Below, piece by piece: positions 6,571 to 23,466 of a stretch of DNA of 54,656 bases. Source of the stretch: Winogradskyella sp. (GTDB taxonomy: Bacteria > Bacteroidota > Bacteroidia > Flavobacteriales > Flavobacteriaceae); contig JASBSA010000064.1 in assembly GCA_030149175.1 (NCBI GenBank), positions 1-54,656 on the forward strand, read 5' to 3'. Within the stretch, counting starts at the first letter, position 1, and the number at the start of each line of letters is the position of its first letter. Made by a program: the position numbers and the translations under genes. The notes beneath the pieces were generated by a model. That model saw only the letters and a program-made list of their open reading frames with translations, was not told the origin of the DNA and did no database searches.

Positions 6571-7875
6571 TTAATTCAAAGCAGCTTTATAAGTAGCTAA
6601 ACAACGCTCTCTTGCTTCTTTATGATCTACCATTGGTTTAGGGTACGTTAATTCTTGATATTCCGGAACCCATTCTTTTATATATTGATAATCTTTGTCA
6701 AACTTTTTTATTTGAGACGTTGGGTTAAAGATTCTAAAATAAGGAGCAGCATCGACACCAGAACCAGCAACCCACTGCCAATTACCAACGTTGCTTGCCA
6801 TTTCATAATCGTGTAACTTTTCTGCAAAATAGGCTTCGCCCCAACGCCAATCAATCAAAAGGTGTTTACACAAAAAACTACCAACTAACATTCTAACTCG
6901 GTTGTGCATAAAACCGGTTTTGTTGAGTTGCCTCATACCTGCGTCAACCAATGGGTAGCCGGTTTTTCCGTCACACCATTTCTTAAACTCTTGTTCATTG
7001 TTACGCCATTCAATTCTGTCGTATTTAGATTTAAAGGCCTTGTCTTTGGTATGCGGAAAATGCCACAAGATTTGCATAAAAAATTCGCGCCAAATCAATT
7101 CTTGCCAAAAAATCTCGTTGTCTTCGTTTATAGCTTTCTTAACCATTTTTCTTATACTAACAGTTCCGAAGCGTAAATGAGGGCCTAAGCGTGATGTAGC
7201 GTCCTTAGCAGGAAAATTTCGAGTAGCTTCATATTCCTGAATTAAAGTAGGAGTAACCTCATAAGGTACAATGACTTGATTGGATTTCTCAAAACCAATA
7301 TCAGACAAGCTTAAATTAGGCAACCTAGTGTGCTCAAAAAGATTATTCAAAAAAGAATTAGTATAATATATTTTTAAATCTATGGTTTTGAACTTTTCTT
7401 TCCAGGTTCGCATGTACGGAGTGTACACAACATAAGGATCTCCGTCTTTTTTCACAACCTCGTCTTTTTCAAAAATTACTTGATCCTTGAAAGTCTTAAA
7501 TTCAATTTTTTGTGATTCTAAATACGATTGCACCGCTTCATCACGTTCTTTAGCATAGGGCTCATAATCGTGATTGGTATAAACTGTATTAATCTTAAAA
7601 TCTTTAGTGAGTTGCTTGTAGATTTCAATAGGTTTTCCGTGATATATGGCAATACTACTATTATGATGGTCTTGTAGTTCTTGCCTCATATTTTGTAAAG
7701 TGTCGTGTATAAAGGTTACTCGTGCATCATTTTTTGGTAAACTGTCCAAGATTTGAGAGTCAAAAATGAAAATAGGTAAAACAGGATGATCACTTTTTAG
7801 TGCTTCATAAAATCCTACATTGTCATCTAATCTCAAGTCTCTGCGAAACCAAAATATATTTACTGTTTTGCTCAT
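6571..7875 (-). CDS. phrB: Deoxyribodipyrimidine photolyase (class I type)
   Basis: NIFWFRRDLRLDDNVGFYEAL...LIWREFFMQILWHFP...GMRQLNKTGFMHNRVRMLVGSFLCKHLLIDWRWGE...NVGNWQWVAGSGVDAAPYFRIFNP. Confidence 0.95.
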   Translation of the reverse strand: MSKTVNIFWFRRDLRLDDNVGFYEALKSDHPVLPIFIFDSQILDSLPKNDARVTFIHDTLQNMRQELQDHHNSSIAIYHGKPIEIYKQLTKDFKINTVYTNHDYEPYAKERDEAVQSYLESQKIEFKTFKDQVIFEKDEVVKKDGDPYVVYTPYMRTWKEKFKTIDLKIYYTNSFLNNLFEHTRLPNLSLSDIGFEKSNQVIVPYEVTPTLIQEYEATRNFPAKDATSRLGPHLRFGTVSIRKMVKKAINEDNEIFWQELIWREFFMQILWHFPHTKDKAFKSKYDRIEWRNNEQEFKKWCDGKTGYPLVDAGMRQLNKTGFMHNRVRMLVGSFLCKHLLIDWRWGEAYFAEKLHDYEMASNVGNWQWVAGSGVDAAPYFRIFNPTSQIKKFDKDYQYIKEWVPEYQELTYPKPMVDHKEARERCLATYKAALN

Positions 7876-7876
7876 A

Positions 7877-8338
7877 CTAATATTTTCCGAAAAGCTCTTC
7901 CAACTTTTTAGTTCTGTAATTAAAGATTTCTTCTAGTTTTGGTTTTACCAAAATAGGATGCACCATTTGCCCCAAGATTCCCATAGGTATCTTATAATCT
8001 ACAATATCCTCCATTTCTACGCCACCATCGATTGGTTTGATAAAATGCTTATGGTGCCACAAAGCGTAAGGCCCAAAACGCTGTTCGTCTACAAAGTATT
8101 CTTTATCCTTAACATGTGTTATTTCTGTAACCCATTTGGTTTTAATACCTAATACTGGTGTTACGATATACTGAATGATTTGGCCTGGAAACATTGGCCT
8201 ATCTGCGCCTGAAAGTATGTTAAAACCCATATAATCTGGTGTGATTGTTTTTAAGTTTTTAGGGCTTGATAAAAATTCCCAAGCTTCGTCAACAGATATA
8301 GGTAAATTTTGTTTTTTGTGGAGTGTATATATCTTCAT
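7877..8338 (-). CDS. SRPBCC family (START-like) protein
   Basis: HKKQNLPISVDEAWEFLSSPKNLKTITPDYMGF...PGQIIQYIVTPVLGIKTKWVTEITHV. Confidence 0.85.
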   Translation of the reverse strand: MKIYTLHKKQNLPISVDEAWEFLSSPKNLKTITPDYMGFNILSGADRPMFPGQIIQYIVTPVLGIKTKWVTEITHVKDKEYFVDEQRFGPYALWHHKHFIKPIDGGVEMEDIVDYKIPMGILGQMVHPILVKPKLEEIFNYRTKKLEELFGKY

Positions 8339-8358
8339 TTTGAGTGTTTAACAAATTA

Positions 8359-8823
8359 TTAGTTGTATACAACAACATATGCATTGAGCGATGTTGCAAT
8401 ACAGAGCCAAATTATATAAGGTAGTAAGAGGTACTTTGCGTATTTTAACCTATCACTTCTAAAGGTGATAAAAAAGTATAAAATTACTAGTAAAAGTAGA
8501 CTGATAATTGCCAATCCGAGAACTGTGAAATGCTGGTTGAAGAATACCCAATTCCAGCCGACATTCAAAATCACTTGAAATCCGTATATCGTCCAAAGGA
8601 ACTTGGATTTACGATCACTAAATAATTCTGCTAAATACCACGAGAAGCAAAGCATAATGAATGCCCAAGCTACGCCAAACACCCATCCAGGTGGTGTCCA
8701 TGGAGCTTTATTTAAACCCAAATACCAATCTGATGTTGGACCATTATTCATTAGCCAACTTCCTAAGGCTAAGCCACCAAAATTGATAACTAAAAATAGG
8801 ATGAAATAGGTAACCTTGTTCAA
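8359..8823 (-). CDS. tspO: TspO/MBR family protein
   Basis: WYLGLNKAPWTPPGWVFGVAWAFIMLCFSWYL...NVGWNWVFF, TspO/MBR signature. Confidence 0.93.
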   Translation of the reverse strand: MNKVTYFILFLVINFGGLALGSWLMNNGPTSDWYLGLNKAPWTPPGWVFGVAWAFIMLCFSWYLAELFSDRKSKFLWTIYGFQVILNVGWNWVFFNQHFTVLGLAIISLLLLVILYFFITFRSDRLKYAKYLLLPYIIWLCIATSLNAYVVVYN

Positions 8824-8830
8824 TGCTAAA

Positions 8831-8995
8831 TTATTTAAGCGATTCTAATTGTTCTAAAACTTTTTGAGCTTCAGCATATTTTAGATCACTAGCAGCTCTG
8901 TTAGTAGTGGATAACTTATGCCAATCAGCCATAAGTTTTTCATACTGTTTTTGTAATTTTTCTTTTTCTGAACTTTTTTTAAATAATCCGAACAT
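8831..8995 (-). CDS. Small Lacal_2735-like protein, 54 aa (missing from the ORF track)
   Basis: Manual translation: MFGLFKKSSEKEKLQKQYEKLMADWHKLSTTNRAASDLKYAEAQKVLEQLESLK*; tightly packed between tspO and gpx on the same strand. Confidence 0.8.
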   Translation of the reverse strand: MFGLFKKSSEKEKLQKQYEKLMADWHKLSTTNRAASDLKYAEAQKVLEQLESLK

Positions 8996-9000
8996 AGCAT

Positions 9001-9549
9001 TTATTTTAAATGTTTGGTAATTCTGGAATTCATTGGCTTAGTGATAGGGTAGAAGTAATCTACAAACTCACCATGTTCGTCTATAAGATATTTCTGAAAA
9101 TTCCATTTTACTTTAGAATTTTGCACTCCATTTAATTTTTTTGAAGTTAGCCACTCGTATAGCGGATGCTGTTGTTCGCCCTTTACTTTAATTTTTTCAG
9201 TCATTAAAAAAGAAACTCCATAGTTAACTTGGCAAAACTCCTCAATCTCATTGGCATTACCTGGTTCTTGACCACCAAACTGATTACAGGGAATACCTAT
9301 AACTACCAAATTATCTTTGTAAGATTCCGAAAGCTCTTGTAGTTCTCTATATTGAGGAGTAAAGCCACATTTAGAAGCCACATTAACAAAAAGAATTTTC
9401 TTTCCTTTGAATTCTGATAAATCTAAGGGTTTGCCTTGTAAACTATTTATTTTGATATTGTACAAAGAAGGTTTTACTTTTTTTACGTTGGCTTTATCTG
9501 TTGTTACAGTTCTTGCTGGTGGTGCTACAAAAGCTTTTATTCGATTCAT
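9001..9549 (-). CDS. Glutathione peroxidase family protein
   Basis: KKILFVNVASKCGFTPQYRELQELSE...IGIPCNQFGGQEPG...KWNFQKYLIDEHGEFV. Confidence 0.93.
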   Translation of the reverse strand: MNRIKAFVAPPARTVTTDKANVKKVKPSLYNIKINSLQGKPLDLSEFKGKKILFVNVASKCGFTPQYRELQELSESYKDNLVVIGIPCNQFGGQEPGNANEIEEFCQVNYGVSFLMTEKIKVKGEQQHPLYEWLTSKKLNGVQNSKVKWNFQKYLIDEHGEFVDYFYPITKPMNSRITKHLK

Positions 9550-9552
9550 AAT

Positions 9553-10236
9553 TTAAAGTTTAAAACTAACAATACCACAATCCATTTCAAATATTTGGCC
9601 AGACAACGAAGCAGCTTTATCAGACAAAAGAAACGTTGCCATATCAGCAACTTCTTCAGGTTTGAGGTATTTTTTTAGTGGATGACGCTCGTTCATGTTT
9701 TCTATCATTCGTTCGTTACGTAATAACTTTGAGGCTAAATCGGTATCTGTAACTGTTGGTGCAATAGCATTAACCCTTACTGTTGGTGCCAATTCAGCAC
9801 CAAGAGATTTAGTTAAGCCTTCTATTGCAGATTTAGAAGCCGCAACGCTTGCATGAAACGGCATACCTAATTTAGAGGCTACAGTACTAAATAGCACAAC
9901 AGAAGGCTTATTACCATTTTTCAAAACCGAAATGTATTGTTGAATAGTCTTAACGGCACCGAGTACATTAATTTCAAAATCATTCTTAAAGTCTTCTAGA
10001 CTTAAACGATTTATTGGTTTTAGATTAATGCTTCCGGGACAATATACTAAACCATCCGCTGAATCAATTTCGGGTAATTGATCATTAATAACATCGCATT
10101 GATGATGTATTAGGTTTTCATGAGTTTGCTGAGGTTCAGTCCTGCTAATGTTTATTACTCTATTAGAAGAAAGCAAAGATGAGACAATTGCATTGCCAAT
10201 ACCTTTGCTTCCTCCTACAACTATAATGGTTTTCAT
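9553..10236 (-). CDS. SDR family oxidoreductase (YxxxK Tyr replaced by Val)
   Basis: VVGGSKGIGNAIVSSL Rossmann motif; FSTVASKLGMPFHASVAASKSAIEGL with V at the Tyr position. Confidence 0.88.
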   Translation of the reverse strand: MKTIIVVGGSKGIGNAIVSSLLSSNRVINISRTEPQQTHENLIHHQCDVINDQLPEIDSADGLVYCPGSINLKPINRLSLEDFKNDFEINVLGAVKTIQQYISVLKNGNKPSVVLFSTVASKLGMPFHASVAASKSAIEGLTKSLGAELAPTVRVNAIAPTVTDTDLASKLLRNERMIENMNERHPLKKYLKPEEVADMATFLLSDKAASLSGQIFEMDCGIVSFKL

Positions 10237-10240
10237 ATTT

Positions 10241-10468
10241 CTATGCTGCTGTTAATGGACGACCTTTTAATCGTTTCTCAATTTTTTGTTTAATAACCGT
10301 TAAGCGTTTCATGAGATCCATTAGTTTGGCGTCTTTCTTTTTCTTGTAGATTTCGTTGATAGCAAGGATGATTTCTTTTGCTTCTCTAGAAGCTAAAATA
10401 CGCTCGCTTGTTGTTTTGAAAGTATGTTTTCTATTTTCAAATTCTACTGCTTTTTCTAATATATCCAT
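10241..10468 (-). CDS. Conserved small helical protein of unknown function
   Basis: 75 aa, coding-like, 3 nt from the folE stop and 4 nt from the SDR start, same strand. Confidence 0.75.
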   Translation of the reverse strand: MDILEKAVEFENRKHTFKTTSERILASREAKEIILAINEIYKKKKDAKLMDLMKRLTVIKQKIEKRLKGRPLTAA

Positions 10469-10471
10469 AGC

Positions 10472-11164
10472 TTAATTATTTATATAGTTTTGCAATTCAA
10501 CAATTTTTTCTGGTGTGTTAAAAATGCCTCCGTAATAAGTTGTAACCGTAGCCGAAGTATCGTCTTTAACTCCTCTAGATGAAACACAAAGATGTTTGGC
10601 ATCTATAATTACGGCAACATCCTCAGTTTCTAGAACTGTTTTTAGCTCGTTGGCAATCTGTTGTGTTAACCGTTCTTGCACTTGAGGTCTTTTTGCATAA
10701 TACTGCACAATTCTATTCAATTTTGAAAGCCCTATAACTTTTCCAGAAGACTTGTAGGCTACATGGGCTTTTCCTATGATTGGCACAAAGTGGTGTTCGC
10801 AATTAGAGTAGAAGGTGATGTCCTTTTCTACCAGCATTTGATTGTACTGATATTTGTTATCAAACAATGCGACTTTCGGTTTGTTTTTTGGATCTAGACC
10901 AGAAAAGATTTCTTCTACATACATTTTTGCCACACGATCTGGCGTTCCTTTTAAAGAATCGTCATTTAAATCTAAACCAAGTACATCCATTATTTCAGAA
11001 AAAAGTATTGATATACGTTGTTTTTTTTCATCATTAGACATTTCAAAGGCATTTGCCTTCATTGGTGTATCTAAACCAGTAAATAAATGGTCATCTCCAA
11101 TGTCATCTATTGATAATCCATTAAGGTGATGACCATTTTTGTTAGGAATAATTTTCGTTTTCAT
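10472..11164 (-). CDS. folE: GTP cyclohydrolase I
   Basis: GTPDRVAKMYVEEIFSGL...YSNCEHHFVPIIGKAHVAY...VIGLSKLNRIVQYYAKRPQVQERLTQQI...HLCVSSRGV. Confidence 0.96.
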   Translation of the reverse strand: MKTKIIPNKNGHHLNGLSIDDIGDDHLFTGLDTPMKANAFEMSNDEKKQRISILFSEIMDVLGLDLNDDSLKGTPDRVAKMYVEEIFSGLDPKNKPKVALFDNKYQYNQMLVEKDITFYSNCEHHFVPIIGKAHVAYKSSGKVIGLSKLNRIVQYYAKRPQVQERLTQQIANELKTVLETEDVAVIIDAKHLCVSSRGVKDDTSATVTTYYGGIFNTPEKIVELQNYINN

Positions 11165-11219: not shown

Positions 11220-11492
11220 TTATCGTTTTGAAATAGAGTTATTTGATATTGTTCGTTGACGAGAGCATTTAAATCTGCCTTTGCCAAAACTTCGTTTTTT
11301 ACTGTGTTTAGTCGCTCGGCCTTGTACGCGTTTTCTCCACATTCTGAAACTACTTGGTTTCATTTCTTTGCGCATCAGTTCTATGACCTCTTGCTCTTTT
11401 AAGCCAAACTGAAAGGTAATGGCTTCAAAAGGCGTTCTATCTTCCCAAGCCATTTCTATTATGCGATCTATTTGTCTGTCATCTAAACTCAT
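11220..11492 (-). CDS. TIGR03643-family small protein
   Basis: DRQIDRIIEMAWEDRTPFEAITFQFGLKEQEVIELMRKEMKPSSFRMWRKRVQGRATKHSKKR; this family is commonly found beside photolyases. Confidence 0.82.
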   Translation of the reverse strand: MSLDDRQIDRIIEMAWEDRTPFEAITFQFGLKEQEVIELMRKEMKPSSFRMWRKRVQGRATKHSKKRSFGKGRFKCSRQRTISNNSISKR

Positions 11493-11920
11493 ATAGTAGT
11501 TGGCATTGAAAATTGTAAATCGTATTTTACTTTTTCGTCTAACAGTTTATCAAAAAAGTTTTTATTCTCTCTGAAGGTTTTACTGTTTCTAAAATGAATG
11601 TAGCGTCCTTGAGCGTGTAAGCTAGAACCATTCACTTTATAAATGACCAGTTGATAATATGGGATAATCCATGTGAAATTTTTCAAACCTTTATTAATCA
11701 TGATTAAAATACCTTTTGGTCGCAGTTCTATATTGGCATAATTAATATCTGAAACTGTATTCATCATGCTTTGCATGTTTGGACTAACTTCATCTATAAT
11801 CATGCGTTTAGACCCTATGCCTCTCATCTTCAATTTTTGTACCAAACCAAAAGGATTACCAACAAGGTCGGCAATAATTTGTTTGTGCTCAGAATTGTGA
11901 TGTGTGGTATTTAAAATCAT
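11489..11920 (-). CDS. Conserved protein of unknown function (start trimmed to Met17 of the ORF-track model)
   Basis: ORF track extends to 11968, but its first 16 codons run through a perfect dyad and likely promoter (11926-11966). MILNTTHHNSEHKQIIADLVGNPFG is a more plausible N-terminus. Confidence 0.7.
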   Translation of the reverse strand: MILNTTHHNSEHKQIIADLVGNPFGLVQKLKMRGIGSKRMIIDEVSPNMQSMMNTVSDINYANIELRPKGILIMINKGLKNFTWIIPYYQLVIYKVNGSSLHAQGRYIHFRNSKTFRENKNFFDKLLDEKVKYDLQFSMPTTI

Positions 11921-11925
11921 ATACG

Positions 11926-11933
11926 TAAAAATA
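11926..11933 (-). promoter_or_regulatory. Candidate -7 element (TATTTTTA) of operon B
   Basis: Minus strand TATTTTTACGT; matches TATCTTTACGT at the equivalent position of operon A. Confidence 0.4.
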
Positions 11934-11938
11934 CAAAT

Positions 11939-11966
11939 GTTTAACTTTTTAAAATAATAGTTAAAC
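11939..11966. promoter_or_regulatory. Operator-like dyad GTTTAACT-N12-AGTTAAAC (copy B)
   Basis: Perfect 8-bp arms with 12-bp spacer; flanks AAAT...AAAA shared with the copy at 20466-20493. Confidence 0.75.
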
Positions 11967-12019
11967 AAAAATTAACAGAGAATTATGAAAGTATATTCTA
12001 GATGTGTGTAGAGTAAACC

Positions 12020-13510
12020 CTAATCGTTCTTTAAAAGCTTGCTTCTGTCTTGTAATGTATGTCGTCTTAATATGCGAAAACTTTCTTTTACTACTTCGGG
12101 ATCTTTTTTCATGTTCCACAGAATTTCGCTTGCGCGTTTTCTGTTTTCTTTAATGTTTATGATAGGTAAGGGATAATCTGTGCCTAGCTTAAAATTGTAA
12201 AGACCTTGTTCTAATTCTGTCATTAAATAGGGCTCATGAATAAAGGGAATATCTAAGCGTGCAAGTTCTGGCACCCATTTTTTTATAAACTCTGCATTTG
12301 GGTCGTGCTTTAATCCATTTAGTGTAGGATTGTAGATTCGTAAGTTATTGATTCCAGTTTCACCAGCTTGCATTTGAAGCTGTGGAAAATGAATACCTGG
12401 TTCAAAATCTAGAAACTGTTGTGATAAGTGTTCTGACGCATTTTGCCAAGGTTGCCATAAAAGATGTGTAAAAAACGATACTAGCATGGCACGCATCCTA
12501 AAATTAACATAACCCGTTTCTATTAGACAACGCATACTGGCATCAACTAGCGGAAAACCGGTTTTACCTTCTTGCCAGGCTTGCTGGTATTGTAACGAAA
12601 TGCTTTTTTTGAGTTTATGATAGCCCTTATTAACACTTTCATTTTCCATGGTATGCTCCATTTCAAACTTTTGTATAAAATGAGCCTGCCAACGTAAGCG
12701 TGATATGAAGCCACCAATATGGCGTTTATCCTTAGCTGTATCTTTTATCTTCTGCGCTTCTTGATAAACCTGGCGAATAGAAATATTGCCCCAGGCAATA
12801 TATGGCGAAAGTCTGCTACAGCTTGTGCGTGATGCCTCTGGTTTTGAAATGTTGAACATATAGTCTTTGTAACGACTCTCAAAAAAAGATTGGGCATATT
12901 TCCAAGCTATAGCACTTCCACCTTTTTGAAATTTTGTTGATTCTGGTGTGCTTAAATCTGTAGTTGTAAGGACACTTTCTAGGGTAGAAATAGCATTTAA
13001 GTCTAATAATTGTTCTGGGTTAGGATTAAATGTTTCAAGCGATTGACTCATGTACACTTCCCAATTTTCTAACCAATTTTCTCTGTTAGTTAATCCACGC
13101 TCTACACCATTGTTTTTACTTTCGTTCCATATAATGAAATTGTTTCTACAATAGCGTTTAAATTCTTTATCTCTATTGTAAGTTGCCAGAATACCAGTTT
13201 CAACATGAGAATATATAGCATCTATTTTATAAAACTCTTGGATGAGATTAAATGCGGTTTGTATATCGCTTGTTACAGTGAGAACTTTAGAGTTATGGTC
13301 TTTTAGTTGCTTATTAATATCTCTTATAGATTCTTTTATAAAGTTAAAATGACGCTCGCTGTAGTGGTTATCATTAAGTAAAAAGTGTTCAAAAACATAA
13401 AGTAATAGAGTAGGTTTTTCCGTCTTTAGAGCATTGGCAATAGCTTCATTATCCTGAAGTCTTAAATCGCGTTTTAGCCAAACAACATTGATATGTGGTT
13501 TAGTTGTCAT
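12020..13510 (-). CDS. Cryptochrome/photolyase family protein, divergent FAD-loop clade
   Basis: NVVWLKRDLRLQDNEAIANAL...GFPLVDASMRCLIETGYVNFRMRAMLVSFFTHLLWQPW...FEPGIHFPQLQMQAGETGINNLRIYNP. Confidence 0.93.
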   Translation of the reverse strand: MTTKPHINVVWLKRDLRLQDNEAIANALKTEKPTLLLYVFEHFLLNDNHYSERHFNFIKESIRDINKQLKDHNSKVLTVTSDIQTAFNLIQEFYKIDAIYSHVETGILATYNRDKEFKRYCRNNFIIWNESKNNGVERGLTNRENWLENWEVYMSQSLETFNPNPEQLLDLNAISTLESVLTTTDLSTPESTKFQKGGSAIAWKYAQSFFESRYKDYMFNISKPEASRTSCSRLSPYIAWGNISIRQVYQEAQKIKDTAKDKRHIGGFISRLRWQAHFIQKFEMEHTMENESVNKGYHKLKKSISLQYQQAWQEGKTGFPLVDASMRCLIETGYVNFRMRAMLVSFFTHLLWQPWQNASEHLSQQFLDFEPGIHFPQLQMQAGETGINNLRIYNPTLNGLKHDPNAEFIKKWVPELARLDIPFIHEPYLMTELEQGLYNFKLGTDYPLPIINIKENRKRASEILWNMKKDPEVVKESFRILRRHTLQDRSKLLKND

Positions 13511-14985
13511 TTTAAATTATCAAGAAATTTTTCGGCATTTTTAAAATGGTTTTCTAGAGTATCTTTTTTCATTCGGTCTAGGTTACCTAGTAACATTCCT
13601 AGTCTTGGATTGCTCTCAAAAAAATTACGATGCTTATCCATAAACCTCCAAAATAGTCCATCCCAAGTATCTTGCCAATCTCCTTTAGAATAATTACTCA
13701 TTTTCATAATATAGTTGCTGCTACTTATATAAGGTTTGGTAGACATTAAGCCACCATCTGCAAACAGACTCATGCCATACACGTTGGGTACCATAACCCA
13801 ATCGTAGGCATCAATGAATAATTCCATAAACCATTTGTAAACGTCATCAGGATCAAACTCGCAAAGCACCATAAAATTTCCTAGAATCATCAAACGTTCT
13901 ATATGGTGCGCATAAGCGGTTTTGTTAACTTTCTTAATAACATCATCTACAGGTTTTATTCCAGTAGAACCATCATAAAATGATTTTGGTATTTTTCGTT
14001 TGAAGTCCCAGAAATTCTTGGTACGCTCTTCTGTACCTTTTACTTGGTAAACACCTCTGATAAATTCTCGCCAACCTAAAATTTGTCGTACAAATCCTTC
14101 TGTAGAATTTATTGGCACATCATTGAGTTTAGCATAATCTATAGCATTTTCAATCACCTCAGAAGGGTTTAGCAAACCAATATTGATTAATGGCGATAAC
14201 AAACTATGATTTAAAAAATGCTCTTCTTTTACAATTGCATCTTCATAAACTCCAAACTCATGAAAGCGATAGTCGAAAAATTGTTGTAACCATTGCTCTG
14301 CAGATTCAAAATCGATTGGGTAAGTTAAGAAGTCATTTAGCTCTCCGTAATGATTACCAAAGTGTTCTTCTACATAGTTTTCGGCTTCTTTGTGATATTT
14401 TGATTTATCAGGAAATTGAATATTTGGTGGTGTTTTGTCTTTAGGGTATTTCTTTCGGTTTTCAGAATCGTAAGTCCATTTTCCACCTTCTGGTTCTTTT
14501 GAAACCATTAAAATATCTCGTTTTTTTCGTTGTTCTTTATAAAATGAGGTTTGAAAAAATTTCTTTTTTGATGGTTTAAAGAATGAGCTGAGATCTTTTT
14601 TTGTATTGATAAACAGTGGACTTTCGTACCATTCAATTGTAATGTCTTTTGAAGTTGATTTAATGTGCTTTTCTAACCAGTTGTCAGTTGGATCTATAAT
14701 GTGAAGTGTTTTGCTACCTTCCGCAATTAATTTTGGAATCAACTTACGTACATCACATAAATCTGAAGTCGCTTCAATATAATTTATTGTTTTGCCTTTT
14801 GATGCTAAATAATCTTCATAGGATTTCATGGAAGCTCTGTGAAACGCTATCTTCTGTTTATGAAATTTATAGTGTTTAAAGAATAGATATTCCTCAATAA
14901 GGTAGATATCTGCATCAATATTTAGAATTGGAGAATTCTGAAATAATTGATGAGGGAAAAGTAGTATGTGTTCGGTTTTTCTCAT
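13507..14985 (-). CDS. FeS-BCP/(6-4)-photolyase-like cryptochrome family protein without FeS Cys ligands
   Basis: MRKTEHILLFPHQLF...ILGWREFIRGVYQ...DAYDWVMVPNVYGMSLFADGGLMSTKPYISSSNYIMKMSNY. Start trimmed to Met37 of the ORF-track model (14985), which removes the overlap with the CRY-DASH gene. Confidence 0.9.
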   Translation of the reverse strand: MRKTEHILLFPHQLFQNSPILNIDADIYLIEEYLFFKHYKFHKQKIAFHRASMKSYEDYLASKGKTINYIEATSDLCDVRKLIPKLIAEGSKTLHIIDPTDNWLEKHIKSTSKDITIEWYESPLFINTKKDLSSFFKPSKKKFFQTSFYKEQRKKRDILMVSKEPEGGKWTYDSENRKKYPKDKTPPNIQFPDKSKYHKEAENYVEEHFGNHYGELNDFLTYPIDFESAEQWLQQFFDYRFHEFGVYEDAIVKEEHFLNHSLLSPLINIGLLNPSEVIENAIDYAKLNDVPINSTEGFVRQILGWREFIRGVYQVKGTEERTKNFWDFKRKIPKSFYDGSTGIKPVDDVIKKVNKTAYAHHIERLMILGNFMVLCEFDPDDVYKWFMELFIDAYDWVMVPNVYGMSLFADGGLMSTKPYISSSNYIMKMSNYSKGDWQDTWDGLFWRFMDKHRNFFESNPRLGMLLGNLDRMKKDTLENHFKNAEKFLDNLK

Positions 14986-14986
14986 G

Positions 14987-16291
14987 TTAAAACAAACTTG
15001 GTTGTAACCAAAGCTTTCTAAATTTTCTATTGCTATCATAACGTTCAGCTTGAAGCTGTACATTAAACTTTCGATCTCTTGGGTCATTACCAACTCCAGC
15101 TACATACATCCAGTTACCATAATTGCTATGTACATCATAGTCGAGTAGGAGCGACTCAAAATAAGCAGCACCAATACGCCAATCTAGTTGTAACTCTTTA
15201 GCGAAATAGGACGCGACGTTTTGGCGACCTCGATTGCTCATCCAGCCCGTTTCTTTGAGTTCAATCATGTTGGCATTTACAAAGTCACTTTTAGTGTTTC
15301 CATTAATCCAGTCGTAAATTAATTTTTGGTCAGTTCTCCACTCATAAATTTTATTTAGTATGCCGCCAAGCTTAAAAATTTGATTACCGTGTTTAAGGGA
15401 AATGTATTTGAAATAGTCGCGCCATATTAATTCAAAAATGAGCCAATAGGTTGATTGGTTTTTGTAATGTTCGGTTTCAAATTGTTTAACTTGCCAGTAA
15501 ATAGTACGTGCCGAAATACTTCCATTGGCTAACCAAGGTGAAAATTTTGAGCTGTAATCCTTACCAACTAATCCATTCCGAGTTTTCTTATAAAAACCAA
15601 GCTTTTTTGTGTTGAAGAAATAGTCTTTTAACCGTTGCATAGCTCCAATTTCACCTCCCTTAAATGGAAAGGCGGAATTGGTATGTGTTTCAAAATCTTC
15701 AAAACCCAAATCTGTTAATGTTGGAACCTTGGTTTTGTTTTCAATTCTATTATTTTCAGGCTGCTTCTTGATTGTTGACTCGTGTCTAATATCAATGTAC
15801 TTTTCAAGTTTTTTTCGGAATACCGTAAATACTTGAGGTGTTTGGTGAATCTCAAAGTTGATATCTTCAGGATGATATAAAAACTGATTATAAATGTGAT
15901 GCCAAGACACATTGTTCACCTTTTCTTTTATGGCATTTTCGGTATCAACTTCATCACTTGTCCATTCCTTTTGAAGGTAAATATTACTAACGTTGTAAGT
16001 TTTACAAATTGAGGGAATAATTTTCTCAGGATTCTCATAGAAAACTAATAAGTCTATATTAAGATTTCTGAGTTGAGTTTTTAGATTTTCTACAGTTTCA
16101 ATTAAAAATTTAGCTCTGAATTTTTCGGTTTTTTTGAAACCAAAAGCATCAGTTTCAAATTGTTTTGGATCAAAACAATACACACCAAAAAACGTATTAC
16201 CGTTTTTGGTAGCTTCACTTAATACGGCGTTATCTATGGTTCTAATGTCATTTTTAAACCAAACCAAGTTTTTTATTTTGTCTTTCTGCAT
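14987..16291 (-). CDS. DASH family cryptochrome
   Basis: [20 protein letters not shown]...[76 protein letters not shown]. Confidence 0.96.
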
Positions 16292-16410
16292 TTTTCGCTA
16301 CAATATTTTACGTTATCCCAATCTTTTGCCCATTTTTTGCGCCACGCAAATGGTCGCTCGCAGACAGGACACACTTTTGAAGGTAGGTGTTGTTTTTTAA
16401 TACCTTTCAT
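16273..16410 (-). CDS. DUF2256 domain-containing protein, 45 aa (missing from the ORF track)
   Basis: Manual translation: [45 protein letters not shown]; CxxC...CxxxC zinc-binding pattern typical of DUF2256; overlaps CRY-DASH start by 19 nt. Confidence 0.92.
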
Positions 16411-17828
16411 TTTTTGTTAATCAAGGCGTTAATCATTCCATTAAAAACAAAAGCATGAAAGGGAAGAACCGAGTACCAATACAGTCGTCCCCAAATGCCT
16501 CTTGGTCTAAAAACTGCACGTTGGTAGAGCTGATCTTTTACAATTTTAAACTCTAACCAAGCTTCACCAGGTAGGCGCATTTCGGCAAATAGCAGTAAAC
16601 GTTTTTCGTCTTTATCGGCAAATAATACACGCCAAAAATCGAGGGCATCACCTGGTTCTAAATAGGTGTCATGTGTTCTTCCACGACGTAATCCAACACC
16701 ACCAAAAAGTTTATCAACATAGCCTCTAATTTTCCAAAGCCAGTTAAAACTGTACCAACCATTTCGACCACCAATACTCCAGATTTTATTGAGGGTAAAC
16801 GTTTCGTCTTTTACCGTTCTATGCCTTATATCTTTATAACAACCAAAATGTGGTAATTCAATATATTTAGAGAGTTGCACATTAAATCTGCCACTGCTTA
16901 TGGCATCTTTCCAGCTAGAGACAACAGCATTTTGCTCAATTTTTTGAAAGGCAAGGTTTACAGCAGTTTTATAATCTACAGGTTCTATGCCAATAATGTT
17001 GTTGATGTTGCTAGGTCTGCCAATCACTTCAACTTTCATGCTATCTACCAAAGCAGCAGCCAATTTAAACGACGTTGAGGTTACAAAATACAACCAGTAA
17101 GATGATAATTTTGGCGTTAAAACAGGAAGTGTAACGATACGACGTTTTAGACCTCGGACTTCAGCAAATTGCAATAACATTTCTTTATAGGTAAGCACTT
17201 CTGGACCGAAAATATCGAAGGATTTATTGTACAATTCTTCTTTGCCCAATCCGCCAGACAGAAAACCTAATACATCACGAATGGCAATAGGTTGCGTTTT
17301 TGTTTTTAGCCATCTTGGCGTAATCATAAACGGTAGTTTTTCTACAATATCTCTAATGATTTCGAAAGAGGCACTTCCGCTACCGACTATAATTCCTGCT
17401 CTAAAAGTTGTAAGTGCATAGTGGTCTGACTTTAACGTATTTTCAACTTGTAAGCGCGATTTTAAATGTTTTGAAAGTGAATTATCATTAACAATACCAC
17501 TGAGGTAGATTACTTGTTTACATTGAGTAACATTGACTAAGTTTTTGAAATTCTGGGCACATTGACGTTCCAGGTCTTCAAAATCATCATAGCTGGCAGA
17601 CATGGAATGTATGAGATAGTAGGCGACATCAATGTCATCTGGAATTTTATTAGGTTCTGGATCTAAAAAGTCTAGCTTAATAAATGAGCAAGATGGATGA
17701 TTTTCAATTTCATCTGGAATGCGATTTAAATCACGGACACAACAAATGAGCTCATGCTCATCTTCTAAAAGCTGAAGTGCTAATCTCTTGGCAATATAGC
17801 CTGTTGTACCTGTGATTAAAATTCGCAT
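16407..17828 (-). CDS. NmrA/SDR-type NAD(P)-binding protein with C-terminal DUF2867-like region
   Basis: [33 protein letters not shown]...[37 protein letters not shown]...[22 protein letters not shown]. Confidence 0.9.
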
Positions 17829-18466
17829 TAATCATTTATGTTTTCAAATTCTGGTTTTGGTCTTTGGTATTCTAAACGTGTGTTGGAGTTTGGGACAGCA
17901 TAAGCATCTAAACCATTAATTGTGGCTACTTTTCCTTTTGACAAATTGATGAAGCCGTCCTTTTCTAATAAGCCATCTTTCACATACAGTTTCTTGATTT
18001 TTCCAATCAATAGAATGGTATCATTAGCTTTAATTGGATATTCTTCAACATATTCCAAAGCCAATTGCAATGGACAGTTTTTTACAAAGGGCGCCGAAAA
18101 TTCATTTTTATATTCTTCATCAAGACGGGTAACATCAAACTCAGAAATAGAAGCATCATATTTTGCAGAGGTGTGATGCGCATCTTCAAGAATATTTTGA
18201 TGAATATGATTTAACGTGAAAAAACCAGTTTCCTTTATATTATCATACGTATTTCTGATAACTGTAGTTGGTCTGAGGAAAAAGCCCAATAAAGCAGGAT
18301 TGGAACCAAGGTGTGTCACGGAACTAAAAACGGCTACGTTACTTATACCATCTTTACTTTTTGTGCCAATTAGGTTTGCAGACTTGTAACCAGAACAACT
18401 GTTAATAAGGTTTATTCGGTATAAATGATGCATTTGGTTAATATCATCGTTATCAAATTCTATCAT
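17828..18466 (-). CDS. Flavin reductase family protein
   Basis: FMN-binding split-barrel features: SCSGYKSANLIGTKSKDGISNVAVFSSVTHLGSNPALLGFFLRPTTVIRNTYDNIKETGFFTLN. Confidence 0.88.
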   Translation of the reverse strand: MIEFDNDDINQMHHLYRINLINSCSGYKSANLIGTKSKDGISNVAVFSSVTHLGSNPALLGFFLRPTTVIRNTYDNIKETGFFTLNHIHQNILEDAHHTSAKYDASISEFDVTRLDEEYKNEFSAPFVKNCPLQLALEYVEEYPIKANDTILLIGKIKKLYVKDGLLEKDGFINLSKGKVATINGLDAYAVPNSNTRLEYQRPKPEFENIND

Positions 18467-19777
18467 TTATAGGGTGTTAAAATTGTTGATTTTTATGCCT
18501 TTTGCCTTGAGGTCAAACATTAAATTATAAAGCCCAAAGAATGTTCTATTGATGTAAATAAAATGTTTAGAGCCACGATTACCGTTCATGTTTCTCAATT
18601 CTGTACTCTTAGAATATTTTTGTCCCATTTCAGTAATTTTTCCGAAGAAGTCGGCATCCGAGAAATCGAAAACTTCAGAATGAAATGGCTGTGTAAATAA
18701 GCTTAATAACTCATGGAACATATCCATAAAAAAGATACGCTCATCATCTGTATCATCCATTCTTAAAATTTCAAGTTCAAAAAGTTTGGCTTTGAACGCT
18801 TCAGGATTGTTAATCACTTTTTTATCTGCTAATTCAAAATATGGCTTATAGAATTGCTCTGGAATCGCTTTCATACAACCAAAATCTAACGCGATTAAAT
18901 TTCCATCTTCAGAAATCAAAAAATTACCAGGATGCGGATCGGCATGAACTTTTTTTAATTTGTGAATTTGAAACATGTAAAAGTCCCACAGCGCTTGACC
19001 TATTTGATTGGATAATTCTTGGTCTGTATTATGTTGTGCAAATTCAGAAAGGTGTTCTCCTTTCATATAATCCATAGTAATAATACGTTCCGACGAAAAC
19101 TCTTTGTAATACTCTGGGAATTTAAGATTTGGAATATGACTACAAGCTTCTACAACAGCTCTGCTTTGTTGTAATTCTAAGATGTAATTAGTTTCTTCAA
19201 CCAGTTTGTTTTCAACCTCTTTAAAATATTTATCAGAATCTTTTCCTTTAATATTGAACATTTTAATAGCGATGGGTTTTACCAAGGCTAAATCTGAAGC
19301 AATACTTTCTGCAACTCCAGGATATTGGATTTTCACAGCAAATTTTTTCCCATTCTTCTCTGCAATATGGACTTGCCCAATACTGGCAGCATTTACTGAA
19401 GTTGCATTGAAAGTATCGAATAACTCTTCTGGGTGTTTTCCAAAATATTTTTTAAATGTTTTTATAACTAGAGGTGGAGATAATGGTGGCACAGAAAATT
19501 GCGATAACGAAAATTTTTCTACATAGGCCTGTGGTAAAATGCTTTTTTCCATACTTAGCATTTGAGCGACTTTTAGCGCACTACCTTTAAGCTGTTTTAG
19601 GCTATCGTAAATATCTTCAGCATTATTTTTGTCTAATCTCGACTTAGCTTCATCTTCTGTTTTTGTGATTTTATCACCATAATATTTTAAATAGTTCACA
19701 CCAACCTTTGCACCGGTAGAGACTAATTTGGTAGCCCTAGAAATTTTTGAAACAGGTATTTTGTCTATCGTCTTCAT
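18467..19777 (-). CDS. ABC1/AarF/UbiB-type atypical kinase
   Basis: LKGSALKVAQMLSMEKSILP...ASIGQVHIAEKNGKKFAVKIQYPGV...HADPHPGNFLISEDGNLIALDFG. Confidence 0.94.
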   Translation of the reverse strand: MKTIDKIPVSKISRATKLVSTGAKVGVNYLKYYGDKITKTEDEAKSRLDKNNAEDIYDSLKQLKGSALKVAQMLSMEKSILPQAYVEKFSLSQFSVPPLSPPLVIKTFKKYFGKHPEELFDTFNATSVNAASIGQVHIAEKNGKKFAVKIQYPGVAESIASDLALVKPIAIKMFNIKGKDSDKYFKEVENKLVEETNYILELQQSRAVVEACSHIPNLKFPEYYKEFSSERIITMDYMKGEHLSEFAQHNTDQELSNQIGQALWDFYMFQIHKLKKVHADPHPGNFLISEDGNLIALDFGCMKAIPEQFYKPYFELADKKVINNPEAFKAKLFELEILRMDDTDDERIFFMDMFHELLSLFTQPFHSEVFDFSDADFFGKITEMGQKYSKSTELRNMNGNRGSKHFIYINRTFFGLYNLMFDLKAKGIKINNFNTL

Positions 19778-20433
19778 GCGTTCATTTTAAATTTTTCTTT
19801 GTAAATAAACTTTCCGAAGTCGATAAGGCTTTTTAATGGAGTTGTATCGATGAGATCAAAACTGGTGTTTACTGATTTTTCAATAAAAACATCTGTTTTT
19901 TCAAATGCTTTAGAAGTGTCATCTATCCAGAATTTTATAGTCATTAATAGTTGAATCCAAGCGGATTCTTCGATACTTCGTTTTTGAAGTTTTTCTAATT
20001 TTTCTTCCTTTAGGTCTAGTGTTTTAATATCTAAGGATGAAACGTAATTATTGAAGCTAGATTTTAAACTTGAGAGTGTTTTAAGCGTTTTCAACTTGTT
20101 TTTTTCTTTTCCTAGTGCATAGATTACATAACTTCTATTGGCCGTAAGGACCTCAAAAAATGTAAAATAAAAACTCAAAAGTTTATTGCGAGCGTCAAAG
20201 GATTGGTAGTCCTCGCTTTTTTGCAACACGTCGTGAGTATTATCAAAAAATGCTTTGAAAATACTGTTTTCTATAGCTTCAAAAGAGTTGAAATATTCAT
20301 AGAATTTTTGCTCTTCAAAATTATTTTCTTTTGAAAATGCATATACAGATTTGGGTTGTTGGTTATGCGTTAACACATAATCCATATATAAAGAAATTAA
20401 ATCTGCTTGTTTTATGTTTTTTTTCTTTGCCAT
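19774..20433 (-). CDS. TetR/AcrR-type transcriptional regulator (divergent)
   Basis: N-terminal HTH pattern SVYAFSKENNFEEQKFYEYFNSFEAIENSIFKAFF resembles TetR HTH-YxYF; all-helical C-terminal region. Confidence 0.75.
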   Translation of the reverse strand: MAKKKNIKQADLISLYMDYVLTHNQQPKSVYAFSKENNFEEQKFYEYFNSFEAIENSIFKAFFDNTHDVLQKSEDYQSFDARNKLLSFYFTFFEVLTANRSYVIYALGKEKNKLKTLKTLSSLKSSFNNYVSSLDIKTLDLKEEKLEKLQKRSIEESAWIQLLMTIKFWIDDTSKAFEKTDVFIEKSVNTSFDLIDTTPLKSLIDFGKFIYKEKFKMNA

Positions 20434-20451
20434 TGTAATTGTTTTACAACG

Positions 20452-20459
20452 TAAAGATA
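20452..20459 (-). promoter_or_regulatory. Candidate -7 element (TATCTTTA) of operon A
   Basis: Minus strand TATCTTTACGT upstream of the TetR-like gene; matches operon B TATTTTTACGT. Confidence 0.45.
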
Positions 20460-20465
20460 TTAAAT

Positions 20466-20493
20466 GTTTAACTATTTGTTTTAAAAGTTAAAC
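20466..20493. promoter_or_regulatory. Operator-like dyad GTTTAACT-N12-AGTTAAAC (copy A)
   Basis: Perfect 8-bp inverted repeat with 12-bp spacer, 33 bp upstream of the TetR-like start codon; identical architecture to 11939-11966. Confidence 0.78.
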
Positions 20494-20531
20494 AAAATTT
20501 AACTAAACTTTGAACTGAGCAGATTTAAGAA

Positions 20532-21575
20532 TTAGTGGTTTTTAGGCAAATAGTATTTTTTTCGCAACCAAAAAGCCACTCTAACCAATAAAATTAATGC
20601 AGGAACTTCAACTAAAGGACCAACAACTCCTGCAAATGCTTGTCCAGAATTTAAGCCAAATACAGCAATAGCTACAGCAATAGCCAATTCAAAATTATTG
20701 CCAGCTGCTGTAAAAGCAATGGCAGCATTTTTATCATAAGTAGCTCCCATAGCTTTACTAACATAGAAGCCAATTATAAACATAATGCCGAAGTATATTA
20801 ATAAAGGTATTGCTATAATGAGTATATCCATAGGAATTTCAACAATTAACTCACCTTTAAGGGAAAACATTACTACGATGGTACAAAGCAACGCGATTAA
20901 AGTCAAAGGAGAAATAGTTGGGATAAACTTTTTAGTATACCATTCTTCACCTTTCAATTTCACGAGGATAAGTCGAGATAAAATACCCAATAAAAAAGGA
21001 ATGCCTAGATATATAGCAACACTTTCTGCAATAGTTGCAATTGAGATATCTATAATAGCACCTTCAAAACCAAAATAGGGAGGCAATACTGAGATAAATA
21101 GATAGGCATAAAAGCTGTAACCAAAAACCTGAAAAACACTATTCAGAGCCACTAAGCCAGCTCCGTATTCACTACTGCCTTCTGCTAAATCATTCCAAAC
21201 TAAAACCATCGCAATACAACGTGCCAAGCCAATAAGAATGAGTCCAACCATATATTCTGGATAATCTTGTAAGAAGGTTATAGCTAAAACAAACATTAAA
21301 ATTGGCCCAATAAACCAATTGAGAATCAATGAAATTGAAAGTATTTTTACATCCTTGAATACTTTTGGTAATAAGGCATAGTTCACTTTTGCTAATGGTG
21401 GATACATCATTAAAATGAGTCCGATAGCTATGGGAATGTTTGTAGAACCGCTACTAAAGCTATTGATTAACTCAGGAAAAGAAGGAGCAAAATAACCGAT
21501 ACCAACACCCATAATCATTGCTAAAAATATCCATAAGGTTAGGTAGCTGTCTAAAAAACTCAGTTTCTTTTTCAT
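20532..21575 (-). CDS. acr3: ACR3 family arsenite efflux transporter
   Basis: [18 protein letters not shown]...[17 protein letters not shown]...[37 protein letters not shown]...[18 protein letters not shown]. Confidence 0.95.
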
Positions 21576-21578
21576 TTG

Positions 21579-22193
21579 TTATAGCTTTATTTGGGAGAAA
21601 ATAAACTTCATTTCAGTAGCGATTTGAACACTACGCTCTTCATATTTTTTTGATTGCTGCGGAGTACCATCTGAGATTTTTGGGTCTTCATAAGTAATAG
21701 GAATTCGTTTTTCTGCACCTACAATAAACGGACAACCTTTATCAGCAGAAGAGCAGGTCATGATAGCAGCAAAACCACTTTGAGGGTTAAATGCTGAAGT
21801 AATGGTTTTTGAAAATCCAATGATAGGGTGTTGGTTTTCGCTGTATTTTATACTGTAAATAGAATTTTCTTCTTGAGACAGCGTTTCTACTTTAAATCCT
21901 GAATTAGCCAAGGTTTTTGCAGCTACAGGAAACAAAGCTGTTGCTTCAGTACCTGCAGAATAGCAAAACAAGTTTTCTATCCCAAAATAAGCACCAGTAG
22001 CTTGAGCCCAAGCTTGTGATAAGTGGCTTCTTCTAGAATTATGTGTGCAAATAAAGTTAAGGTTGACGATTTGTTTTGTATCAACTTTAGCCTGAATAAA
22101 CTCAATTAAAGGTTGAAGAATAGTTCTTCTTTCTTCTGAAATTGAAGCCGTATTCAGGCTTTCAATTTTTTCTGCTAATCGGGAATACAGCAT
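21579..22193 (-). CDS. arsC: Arsenate reductase, low-molecular-weight phosphatase type
   Basis: NFICTHNSRRSHLSQAWAQATGAYFG (CX5R-like P-loop) and MTCSSADKGCPFIVGAEKRIPITYEDPK. Confidence 0.85.
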   Translation of the reverse strand: MLYSRLAEKIESLNTASISEERRTILQPLIEFIQAKVDTKQIVNLNFICTHNSRRSHLSQAWAQATGAYFGIENLFCYSAGTEATALFPVAAKTLANSGFKVETLSQEENSIYSIKYSENQHPIIGFSKTITSAFNPQSGFAAIMTCSSADKGCPFIVGAEKRIPITYEDPKISDGTPQQSKKYEERSVQIATEMKFIFSQIKL

Positions 22194-22208
22194 ACTTAAT
22201 TATTGATT

Positions 22209-23099
22209 TTAACAACAGTTACCATCAGGTGAGCAACAAGGCTCATCATTTGTAATGTCTGCTAATTGAAGTTTTGGTTTCTTTTCCTTTTTTCCTGGTT
22301 TTTCAGCATAAACTGTAATGCTGAAAATACCAACACTATCAGAGTTAAACTGTTTAATCATCTCTTCATCTAAATACTTGCTTAAGATATCATCTGGAAT
22401 AGTAATAGGCTTTTCTTTTTGAATATTGATATTTACAAAGCCTTCATCAGAAATGTATTTTAAATAGTCCTCTTTTTGAATAGCGCCAGCTACACAACCA
22501 GCATACATTTCGGCATCTTCTTTTAAAGCTTTAGGTAAATCACCAACTAAGACGATATCTGAAATACTAAAATGACCACCAGGTTTTAAAACTCTGAAAA
22601 TTTCACTGATAACTTTTTGTTTGTTAGGCACTAAGTTAAGTACACAATTACTTACAATGACATCGGCAATATTACCAGAAACAGGCATATTGTCTATATC
22701 ACCTTCTCTAAATTCAACATTGTTGTAGCCAAGTTTTTCAGCATTGATACGTGCTTTTTGTATCATAATAGGTGTAAAGTCAATACCAATAACTTTTCCT
22801 TTGCTACCTGTTTCATGTCTCGCCACAAAACAATCGTTACCAGCACCAGAGCCTAAATCTATAACGGTATCTCCTTTTTGGATTAGTGCGAATTGTGTTG
22901 GTAGTCCACAACCTAAGCCTAAATCGGCATCACTGACATAGCCGTCAGTTTCTGAATAATCATCCATCATAATGTTATAAACTTTATTTGATGGAGTAGT
23001 GGCTCCACAACAAGATGAAGCATTTTCAGCTTTGCCTTGTTCTGCAATTTTTGCGTATCGTTCTTTTACGATGTCTTTAAGTTCTTGTTCAGTTTTCAT
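22209..23099 (-). CDS. arsM: Arsenite S-adenosylmethionine methyltransferase
   Basis: LGLGCGLPTQFALIQKGDTVIDLGSGAGNDCFVARHETGSKGKVIGIDFTPIMIQKAR; N-terminal SSCCG and C-terminal CCSPDGNCC Cys motifs. Confidence 0.94.
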   Translation of the reverse strand: MKTEQELKDIVKERYAKIAEQGKAENASSCCGATTPSNKVYNIMMDDYSETDGYVSDADLGLGCGLPTQFALIQKGDTVIDLGSGAGNDCFVARHETGSKGKVIGIDFTPIMIQKARINAEKLGYNNVEFREGDIDNMPVSGNIADVIVSNCVLNLVPNKQKVISEIFRVLKPGGHFSISDIVLVGDLPKALKEDAEMYAGCVAGAIQKEDYLKYISDEGFVNINIQKEKPITIPDDILSKYLDEEMIKQFNSDSVGIFSITVYAEKPGKKEKKPKLQLADITNDEPCCSPDGNCC

Positions 23100-23136
23100 A
23101 ATTACATGTTTTGTATTGATGTAAAATCAATATGAT

Positions 23137-23466
23137 TTAACAACAATTAGTTTTTTTAGATTCATAATCTAGAAATTGAGAAATAAGATCTTTTGCATTA
23201 GCCCAATTATCTTCATCTATACAATAGCAAACGCTTGTAGGTTCTATATTTCCTTTAATTAGGCCTATGTTTTTTAATTCTCTAAGGTGTTGGGATATTG
23301 TAGCTTGTGCCAAGCCAATTTCGTCCACCAAGTCACCGCAGATACAAGTACTAGAGTTGAAAATATGTTGCAGTATAGCCACTCTTGCAGGATGCGCAAA
23401 AGCCTTAGCTATGCTAGCAATTTGGTTTTGTTCTTCGGTAAAAATCTCAGATTTCGTTAGTCCCAT
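23137..23466 (-). CDS. arsR: ArsR/SmtB family metalloregulator
   Basis: KAFAHPARVAILQHIFNSSTCICGDLVDEIGLAQATISQHLRELKNIGLIKG; C-terminal NCC. Confidence 0.94.
   Translation of the reverse strand: MGLTKSEIFTEEQNQIASIAKAFAHPARVAILQHIFNSSTCICGDLVDEIGLAQATISQHLRELKNIGLIKGNIEPTSVCYCIDEDNWANAKDLISQFLDYESKKTNCC

Follow-up and report, generated by a model that had tools for sequence, protein, structure and literature searches.

The photolyase island of Winogradskyella sp. raises the question of which protein reads the two dyads that precede its two halves, and what this reading controls. The island lies on the minus strand of a 54,656-nucleotide stretch of contig JASBSA010000064.1 (assembly GCA_030149175.1), referred to here as the window, and comprises a TetR-like/ABC1/photolyase operon and a hyp143-DUF2805-folE operon, each behind one dyad. 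The reader is most likely the MerR/B12-domain protein of the same genome (G000, contig C157, positions 283-1185) and not the TetR-like neighbour, as judged from sequence comparisons, and it is quite probable that the dyads are operators of this B12-type light-sensing repressor, which would occlude both island promoters in the dark. The comparisons support the conservation and position of the operator, the identity of its reader and its inverted symmetry; B12 binding, dark repression and light release we infer by analogy with known systems.

Both dyads were confirmed exactly where the initial annotation had located them, at 11939-11966 and 20466-20493, together with the TAT(T/C)TTTACGT sequence that follows them on the minus strand (11933-11923 and 20459-20449). 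The operator core can be written as GTTTAAC-N14-GTTAAAC, with arms 21 bp apart, that is, two helical turns. The additional GTTAA half-site that had been noticed is present at both dyads and keeps the same offset in relatives, so that half-sites start at -10, 0 and +21, with roughly one and two helical turns between them. The full dyad is as rare as had been supposed: in the genome assembly (2.53 Mb, 75% complete) the only two exact copies are those of the island, all remaining matches have three mismatches, and about 0.0035 exact copies per genome would be expected by chance from base composition.

The dyad recurs across 250 genomes of the Flavobacteriaceae, often as a pair about 8.5 kb apart. 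Some 30 bp downstream of it there is mostly an ortholog of the TetR-like gene or of hyp143, and the islands keep their gene order, so the orthologous islands have retained arms and spacing. At three mismatches or fewer, the dyad is found in 45 of 55 TetR-like promoters and in 25 of 28 hyp143 promoters, a threshold reached by about 0.3% of shuffled promoters. A second sample of 80 loci, mostly from named genomes and with many Winogradskyella, gives 65/78 and 48/61, respectively. The distance to the promoter is also kept, as the gap between the dyad and the TAnnTTT box is 6 bp in 56 of 65 relatives at the TetR-like promoter and 5-6 bp in 47 of 48 at the hyp143 promoter, and the GTTAA half-site stands at the exact 10-bp offset in 53/101 TetR-like and 38/68 hyp143 sites. 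Information content and conservation are highest at the G and C columns of the arms, and the spacer is just AT-rich. Genome-wide counts at one mismatch or fewer show a modest enrichment in 249 genomes (190, against 114 for a reversed-pattern control, with a background of about 0.5 per genome); with so modest a margin they are not used as evidence, and the case therefore rests on the position of the dyad. Its retention at both island promoters supports the proposal that two operons share one regulator site.

Several relatives carry this dyad in the interval that separates crtI from a merR gene, whose product has a B12-binding domain and resembles CarH/LitR. This merR-crtI junction carries the dyad in 26 of the 48 loci whose MerR has the recognition helix RIWEKRY, some of these loci having been picked through a dyad search. 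Among genomes with the TetR-like gene, the dyad is present in 38 of the 41 that encode a RIWEKRY-type MerR and in none of the five that have no MerR (Fisher p=4e-5, a statistic that ignores kinship among the genomes). A CarH/LitR-type reader had been considered in the initial annotation, and both the merR-crtI dyads and the behaviour of the recognition helix speak for that candidate.

The arms vary with this helix. MerR proteins with RKWE(T/S)RY (RK) instead of RIWEKRY (RI) go with GTCTAA/TTAGAC arms, which have C at position 3. Where the only MerR of a genome is of RK type, this C is found in both arms (G038) or in at least one of them (G066, G231), and G040 is a further case. According to a prediction written beforehand, Cellulophaga fucicola and C. 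omnivescoria, with symmetric GTCTAAT...GTTAGAC dyads, should have the RK helix, and genomes with GTTTAAC should have RIWEKRY; the RK helix was found in both Cellulophaga, and the readable controls were also as predicted. In RK genomes, exact or near-exact variant dyads occur at the merR-crtI junction (two copies in G185), between merR and fasciclin genes (G204, G223, G032, G014), before the folE operon (G066) and before ABC1 (G169). A variant dyad is found upstream of merR in 9 of 14 RK loci, some of which were found by the variant pattern itself, versus 0 of 48 RI loci. In the tree, the RK proteins form a single clade, whose sister (G025) combines a RIWERRY helix with GTTTAAC arms, which therefore implies one evolutionary switch and not many. 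As the change from T to C is mirrored in both arms, the operator, read from these sequences, is an inverted repeat, unlike the 11-bp direct repeats of CarH type. The initial annotation had left room for a direct-repeat reader, and in the window's genome itself the near-palindromic arms are ambiguous in this respect; the mirrored variants of the RK clade speak against such a reading, and variant arms in direct orientation give eight scattered matches only.

The candidate reader belongs to a family in which the N-terminal MerR winged-helix domain (PF13411) and the four-helix bundle of B12-binding proteins (PF02607) are matched in 25 of 25 proteins. Its recognition helix is RIWEKRY or RKWE(T/S)RY in most of them, with RIWEQRY and RIWERRY in single cases. 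The Wx9EH signature of the bundle and the lower-ligand motif ExHxxG are present in 40/40 homologs, with E191, H193 and G196 invariant (A1 numbering). A profile comparison matches CarH (5c8d, E 7e-21), and the best match of an AlphaFold2 model (pLDDT 87.6) is the CarH-DNA complex (5c8e, E 8e-14). In the model, the predicted C-terminal fold aligns with the cobalamin domain of CarH, and full-length CarH with cobalamin is among the chains matched.

The proposed model is that in the dark the cobalamin-bound MerR protein would sit on the dyad, beside the -7 box, shutting out the RNA polymerase. Light would break the cobalamin bond, the protein would leave the operator, and both halves of the island, with their photolyase, folE and redox genes, could then be transcribed. 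In relatives, carotenoid synthesis through crtI and genes for fasciclin-domain proteins would join this light-released set.

Two rival explanations dispense with MerR as the reader. One of them assigns the dyad to the adjacent TetR-like protein as an autoregulatory operator, through which this protein would repress its own operon and the second half of the island. This gene comes first behind dyad 1, its product has a TetR-type fold and weak similarity to FadR-like helix-turn-helix proteins, and TetR proteins typically have palindromic operators beside the regulator gene; the initial annotation had also named it as a candidate. An autoregulatory operator should occur only alongside its TetR gene, yet dyad matches are present in five near-complete genomes with no TetR_C_23 (PF17931) protein; in three of them (G072, G130, G144) the position at crtI was read directly, and in the other two (G019, G249) the match is found some 40-50 bp past merR. 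Conversely, the TetR-like orthologs of the five MerR-free genomes have no dyad, the arms follow the MerR helix, and the protein may not bind DNA at all, given the weak COQ9 similarity of 29/35 orthologs and its constant ABC1 kinase neighbour. The TetR-like protein was thus rejected as the reader, and its autoregulation is considered very unlikely. The other takes the dyad for a feature of DNA structure or of the promoter that has no specific reader, such as an AT-rich bend or an UP-like element, or for a product of chance, since its arms are AT-rich and the one-mismatch background is about 0.5 per genome; the strong conservation of precisely the G and C positions, the covariation of arms and helix and the loss of the dyad where MerR is missing make this explanation barely credible.

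Even with MerR as the reader, occlusion in the dark by a B12-bound repressor has points against it. No canonical -33 TTG was found in either island promoter. The covariation of helix and arms comes from essentially a single branch of the tree. In the window's genome there is no dyad between merR and crtI, genes which overlap there by 1 bp, and crtI is therefore no independent target in this genome. Of the classic B12 motif, most of the 40 proteins have the SxT/V-like part and none has the GG end; the Rossmann-domain model PF02310 matches 6 of 25 relatives and does not match the protein of the window's genome, and no cobalamin adenosyltransferase was found in that 75%-complete assembly, although a congener (G158) and two named Winogradskyella genomes have it. 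Because the island promoters have no obvious -33 TTG, and because classical MerR proteins are able to activate from a site that lies between the promoter elements, some room is left for activation in the light in place of repression in the dark. This alternative seems unlikely, as the -7 box TAnnTTTG of the crtI promoter begins at dyad position 15 in 24 of 26 loci, so that the dyad straddles this promoter; its shift of 20 bp with respect to the island placement fits occlusion better than activation, and the characterised CarH and PmlR2 are repressors (PMC8156234, PMC9758184). The divergence of the Rossmann half (PF02310 misses 19 of 25 proteins) and the missing GG could in turn point to an input other than B12, for instance redox, or a photoreceptor that acts as a partner in the way known from class II LitR. 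We regard such an input as improbable to a similar degree, because Wx9EH and the lower-ligand motif are intact in all homologs and the predicted C-terminal fold resembles the CarH cobalamin domain.

If the repressor model is correct, a very abundant group of marine bacteria turns on its photolyase island via a vitamin B12 photoreceptor, and its repair of ultraviolet (UV) damage depends on light and on B12 supply simultaneously. The claim is directly testable, since it names the operator, its reader, the targets and a natural switch of specificity. A broader proposal, to which we give about even chances, is that flavobacteria harbor a separate lineage of B12-type light-sensing repressors acting on true inverted repeats, with arms on one helix face, 10 and 21 bp apart. 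Through this one sensor, light and the supply of vitamin B12 would be linked with UV-damage repair, pterin synthesis, the pair of TetR/COQ9-like protein and ABC1 kinase, carotenoids and fasciclin surface proteins. In one clade, the replacement of a single residue of the recognition helix, Ile by Lys, would have shifted all operators to GTCTAAC arms.

Matches outside the island and the crtI junction were also recorded. The three-mismatch matches of the window's genome, for example the one at C39:50220 before a repeat-family gene, were discarded as further sites, being no better than chance. A three-mismatch match on contig C39 (L162:2721-2748), with TATATTTG, has a register like that of crtI and precedes a repeat-family exported protein; it may be chance. 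In four genomes, a dyad with one mismatch precedes the gene of a large exported protein (IEGFEFTNGHES...) near pyrE (L170:1809, L171:1946, L172:566, L178:1992), a possible further target. Genes for fasciclin-domain lipoproteins repeatedly follow the dyad or its GTCTAAC variant, and several of these genes are divergent from merR (L174:6462, L175:4658, L180:2040, L279, L280, L287, L288). In L076:230-282 and relatives, the TAnnTTTG box of the merR promoter runs directly into a single GTTTAA half-site, which could reflect weak autoregulation.

The features of the window are collected in Table 1. The frames of the DASH and DPRP genes share 107 bp (14987-15093), the TTG start of the latter being probably called too early. 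Several relatives carry a duplication of the 75-aa gene beside folE (L137:4421-5023, L138:10592-11197), and the product of this gene has no known family apart from a weak Rsd/AlgQ match. An ars-like operon (20532-23466; ArsR, an ArsM-like methyltransferase, a phosphatase/ArsC-like protein and ACR3) shares the strand of the island and stops 38 bp short of dyad 1.

Table 1. Candidate operators, promoter elements and genes of the photolyase island in the window
Feature	Coordinates	Strand	Basis or remark
Dyad operator 1 (putative), GTTTAACT-N12-AGTTAAAC	20466..20493	-	exact match; precedes TetR-like/ABC1/photolyase operon
Dyad operator 2 (putative)	11939..11966	-	exact match; precedes hyp143-DUF2805-folE operon
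Third half-site GTTAA at dyad 1	20499..20503	-	10 bp upstream of left arm; conserved
Third half-site GTTAA at dyad 2	11972..11976	-	10 bp upstream of left arm; conserved
-7 promoter element TATCTTTA	20452..20459	-	sequence; 6 bp past dyad 1
-7 promoter element TATTTTTA	11926..11933	-	sequence; 5 bp past dyad 2
TetR-like protein (TetR_C_23, weak COQ9 similarity)	19774..20433	-	profile and structure matches; dyad target, reader role rejected
ABC1/UbiB-type atypical kinase	18467..19777	-	PF03109
Flavin reductase-like protein	17828..18466	-	PF01613
SDR + DUF2867 protein	16407..17828	-	PF11066, PF01370
DASH-type cryptochrome/photolyase	14987..16291	-	TIGR02765 above cut-off
DPRP photolyase-related protein	13507..15093	-	PF04244; start probably overcalled
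Photolyase/cryptochrome family protein	12020..13510	-	PF03441, PF00875
hyp143, conserved 143-aa protein, first gene of second operon	11489..11920	-	orthologs behind dyad; no Pfam or NCBIfam family matched
DUF2805/TIGR03643 protein	11220..11492	-	profile match
FolE, GTP cyclohydrolase I	10472..11164	-	PF01227
Rest of second half: 75-aa protein, SDR, glutathione peroxidase, TspO, SRPBCC-like protein, photolyase	6571..10468	-	

COQ9 and COQ8/UbiB work together in ubiquinone synthesis in other organisms. The TetR-like protein has a TetR fold, and PF17931 is present in all orthologs, among which weak COQ9 matches are also found (TIGR02396 in 29/35, PF08511 in 17/35). Its gene is always directly followed by that of the ABC1/UbiB kinase (18467-20433 in the window), even where the remaining island is missing, and the two adjoin in 40 of the 40 relatives' loci that were fetched whole. 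Given the COQ9 similarity, this constant neighbour and the cooperation of COQ9 and COQ8 elsewhere, the TetR-like protein may serve the kinase as a lipid-binding partner, a lead that would make the two a possible COQ9/COQ8-like pair in menaquinone-using bacteria. By its PF17931 membership and weak COQ9 similarity, the neighbour of dyad 1 is close to the TetR_C_23/COQ9-like proteins; on present evidence, it is not the reader of the dyad.

Among known systems, the closest counterpart of the proposed reader is CarH of Thermus thermophilus and Bacillus megaterium, a class I LitR and adenosylcobalamin-dependent photoreceptor that represses in the dark (PMC8156234). Both share the MerR domain, the Wx9EH bundle, the ExHxxG motif and the predicted fold, as well as a carotenoid gene as target and an operator overlapping promoter elements. 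CarH operators consist of tandem 11-bp direct repeats, nnnnTnnACAn (PMC9304148), whereas these repeats are not present here, where an inverted GTTTAAC-N14-GTTAAAC is accompanied by a GTTAA half-site. Moreover, the B12 motif lacks its GG part and B12 binding is only predicted, and the targets include the whole photolyase/folE island. The inverted-repeat layout raises the question of how a CarH-like oligomer would fit a geometry unlike that of the solved CarH-DNA complex. No account of a Bacteroidota CarH operator was found in the literature searched, which left out most subscription papers, so this is no proof of absence. CarA/CarH of Myxococcus xanthus belong to the same MerR/B12 family, and their operator was first described as interrupted inverted repeats upstream of and overlapping the -35 element, although later work there favours direct repeats (PMC9304148); Myxococcus CarA is without the Trp of Wx9EH, which is present here in 40/40 proteins.

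The target set resembles that of the class II LitR proteins of Pseudomonas (PplR/PmlR), which repress a light-induced phrB/folE/cryB/SDR regulon (PMC9758184), so that photolyase, cryptochrome, FolE and SDR genes are placed in both cases under a LitR-type MerR repressor, with two half-sites about two helical turns apart. The Pseudomonas operator is TGTACA-N12-TGTACA, also given as T(G/A)TACA-N12-TGTA(C/T)A, in contrast to the GTTTAAC/GTTAAAC arms, 21 bp apart, described here; the Pseudomonas proteins respond via a short LOV photoreceptor, and their B12 domain has lost the Rossmann part, with the lower-ligand motif, and is reduced to its helical half (PMC9758184), whereas the lower-ligand histidine is kept in the flavobacterial proteins (ExHxxG in 40/40). 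Control of carotenoid and photolyase genes by LitR/CarH is already known in other phyla; what appears to be new here, as far as sequences can tell, is the inverted-repeat operator, the code that links its arms to the recognition helix, the flavobacterial target set and its wide conservation.

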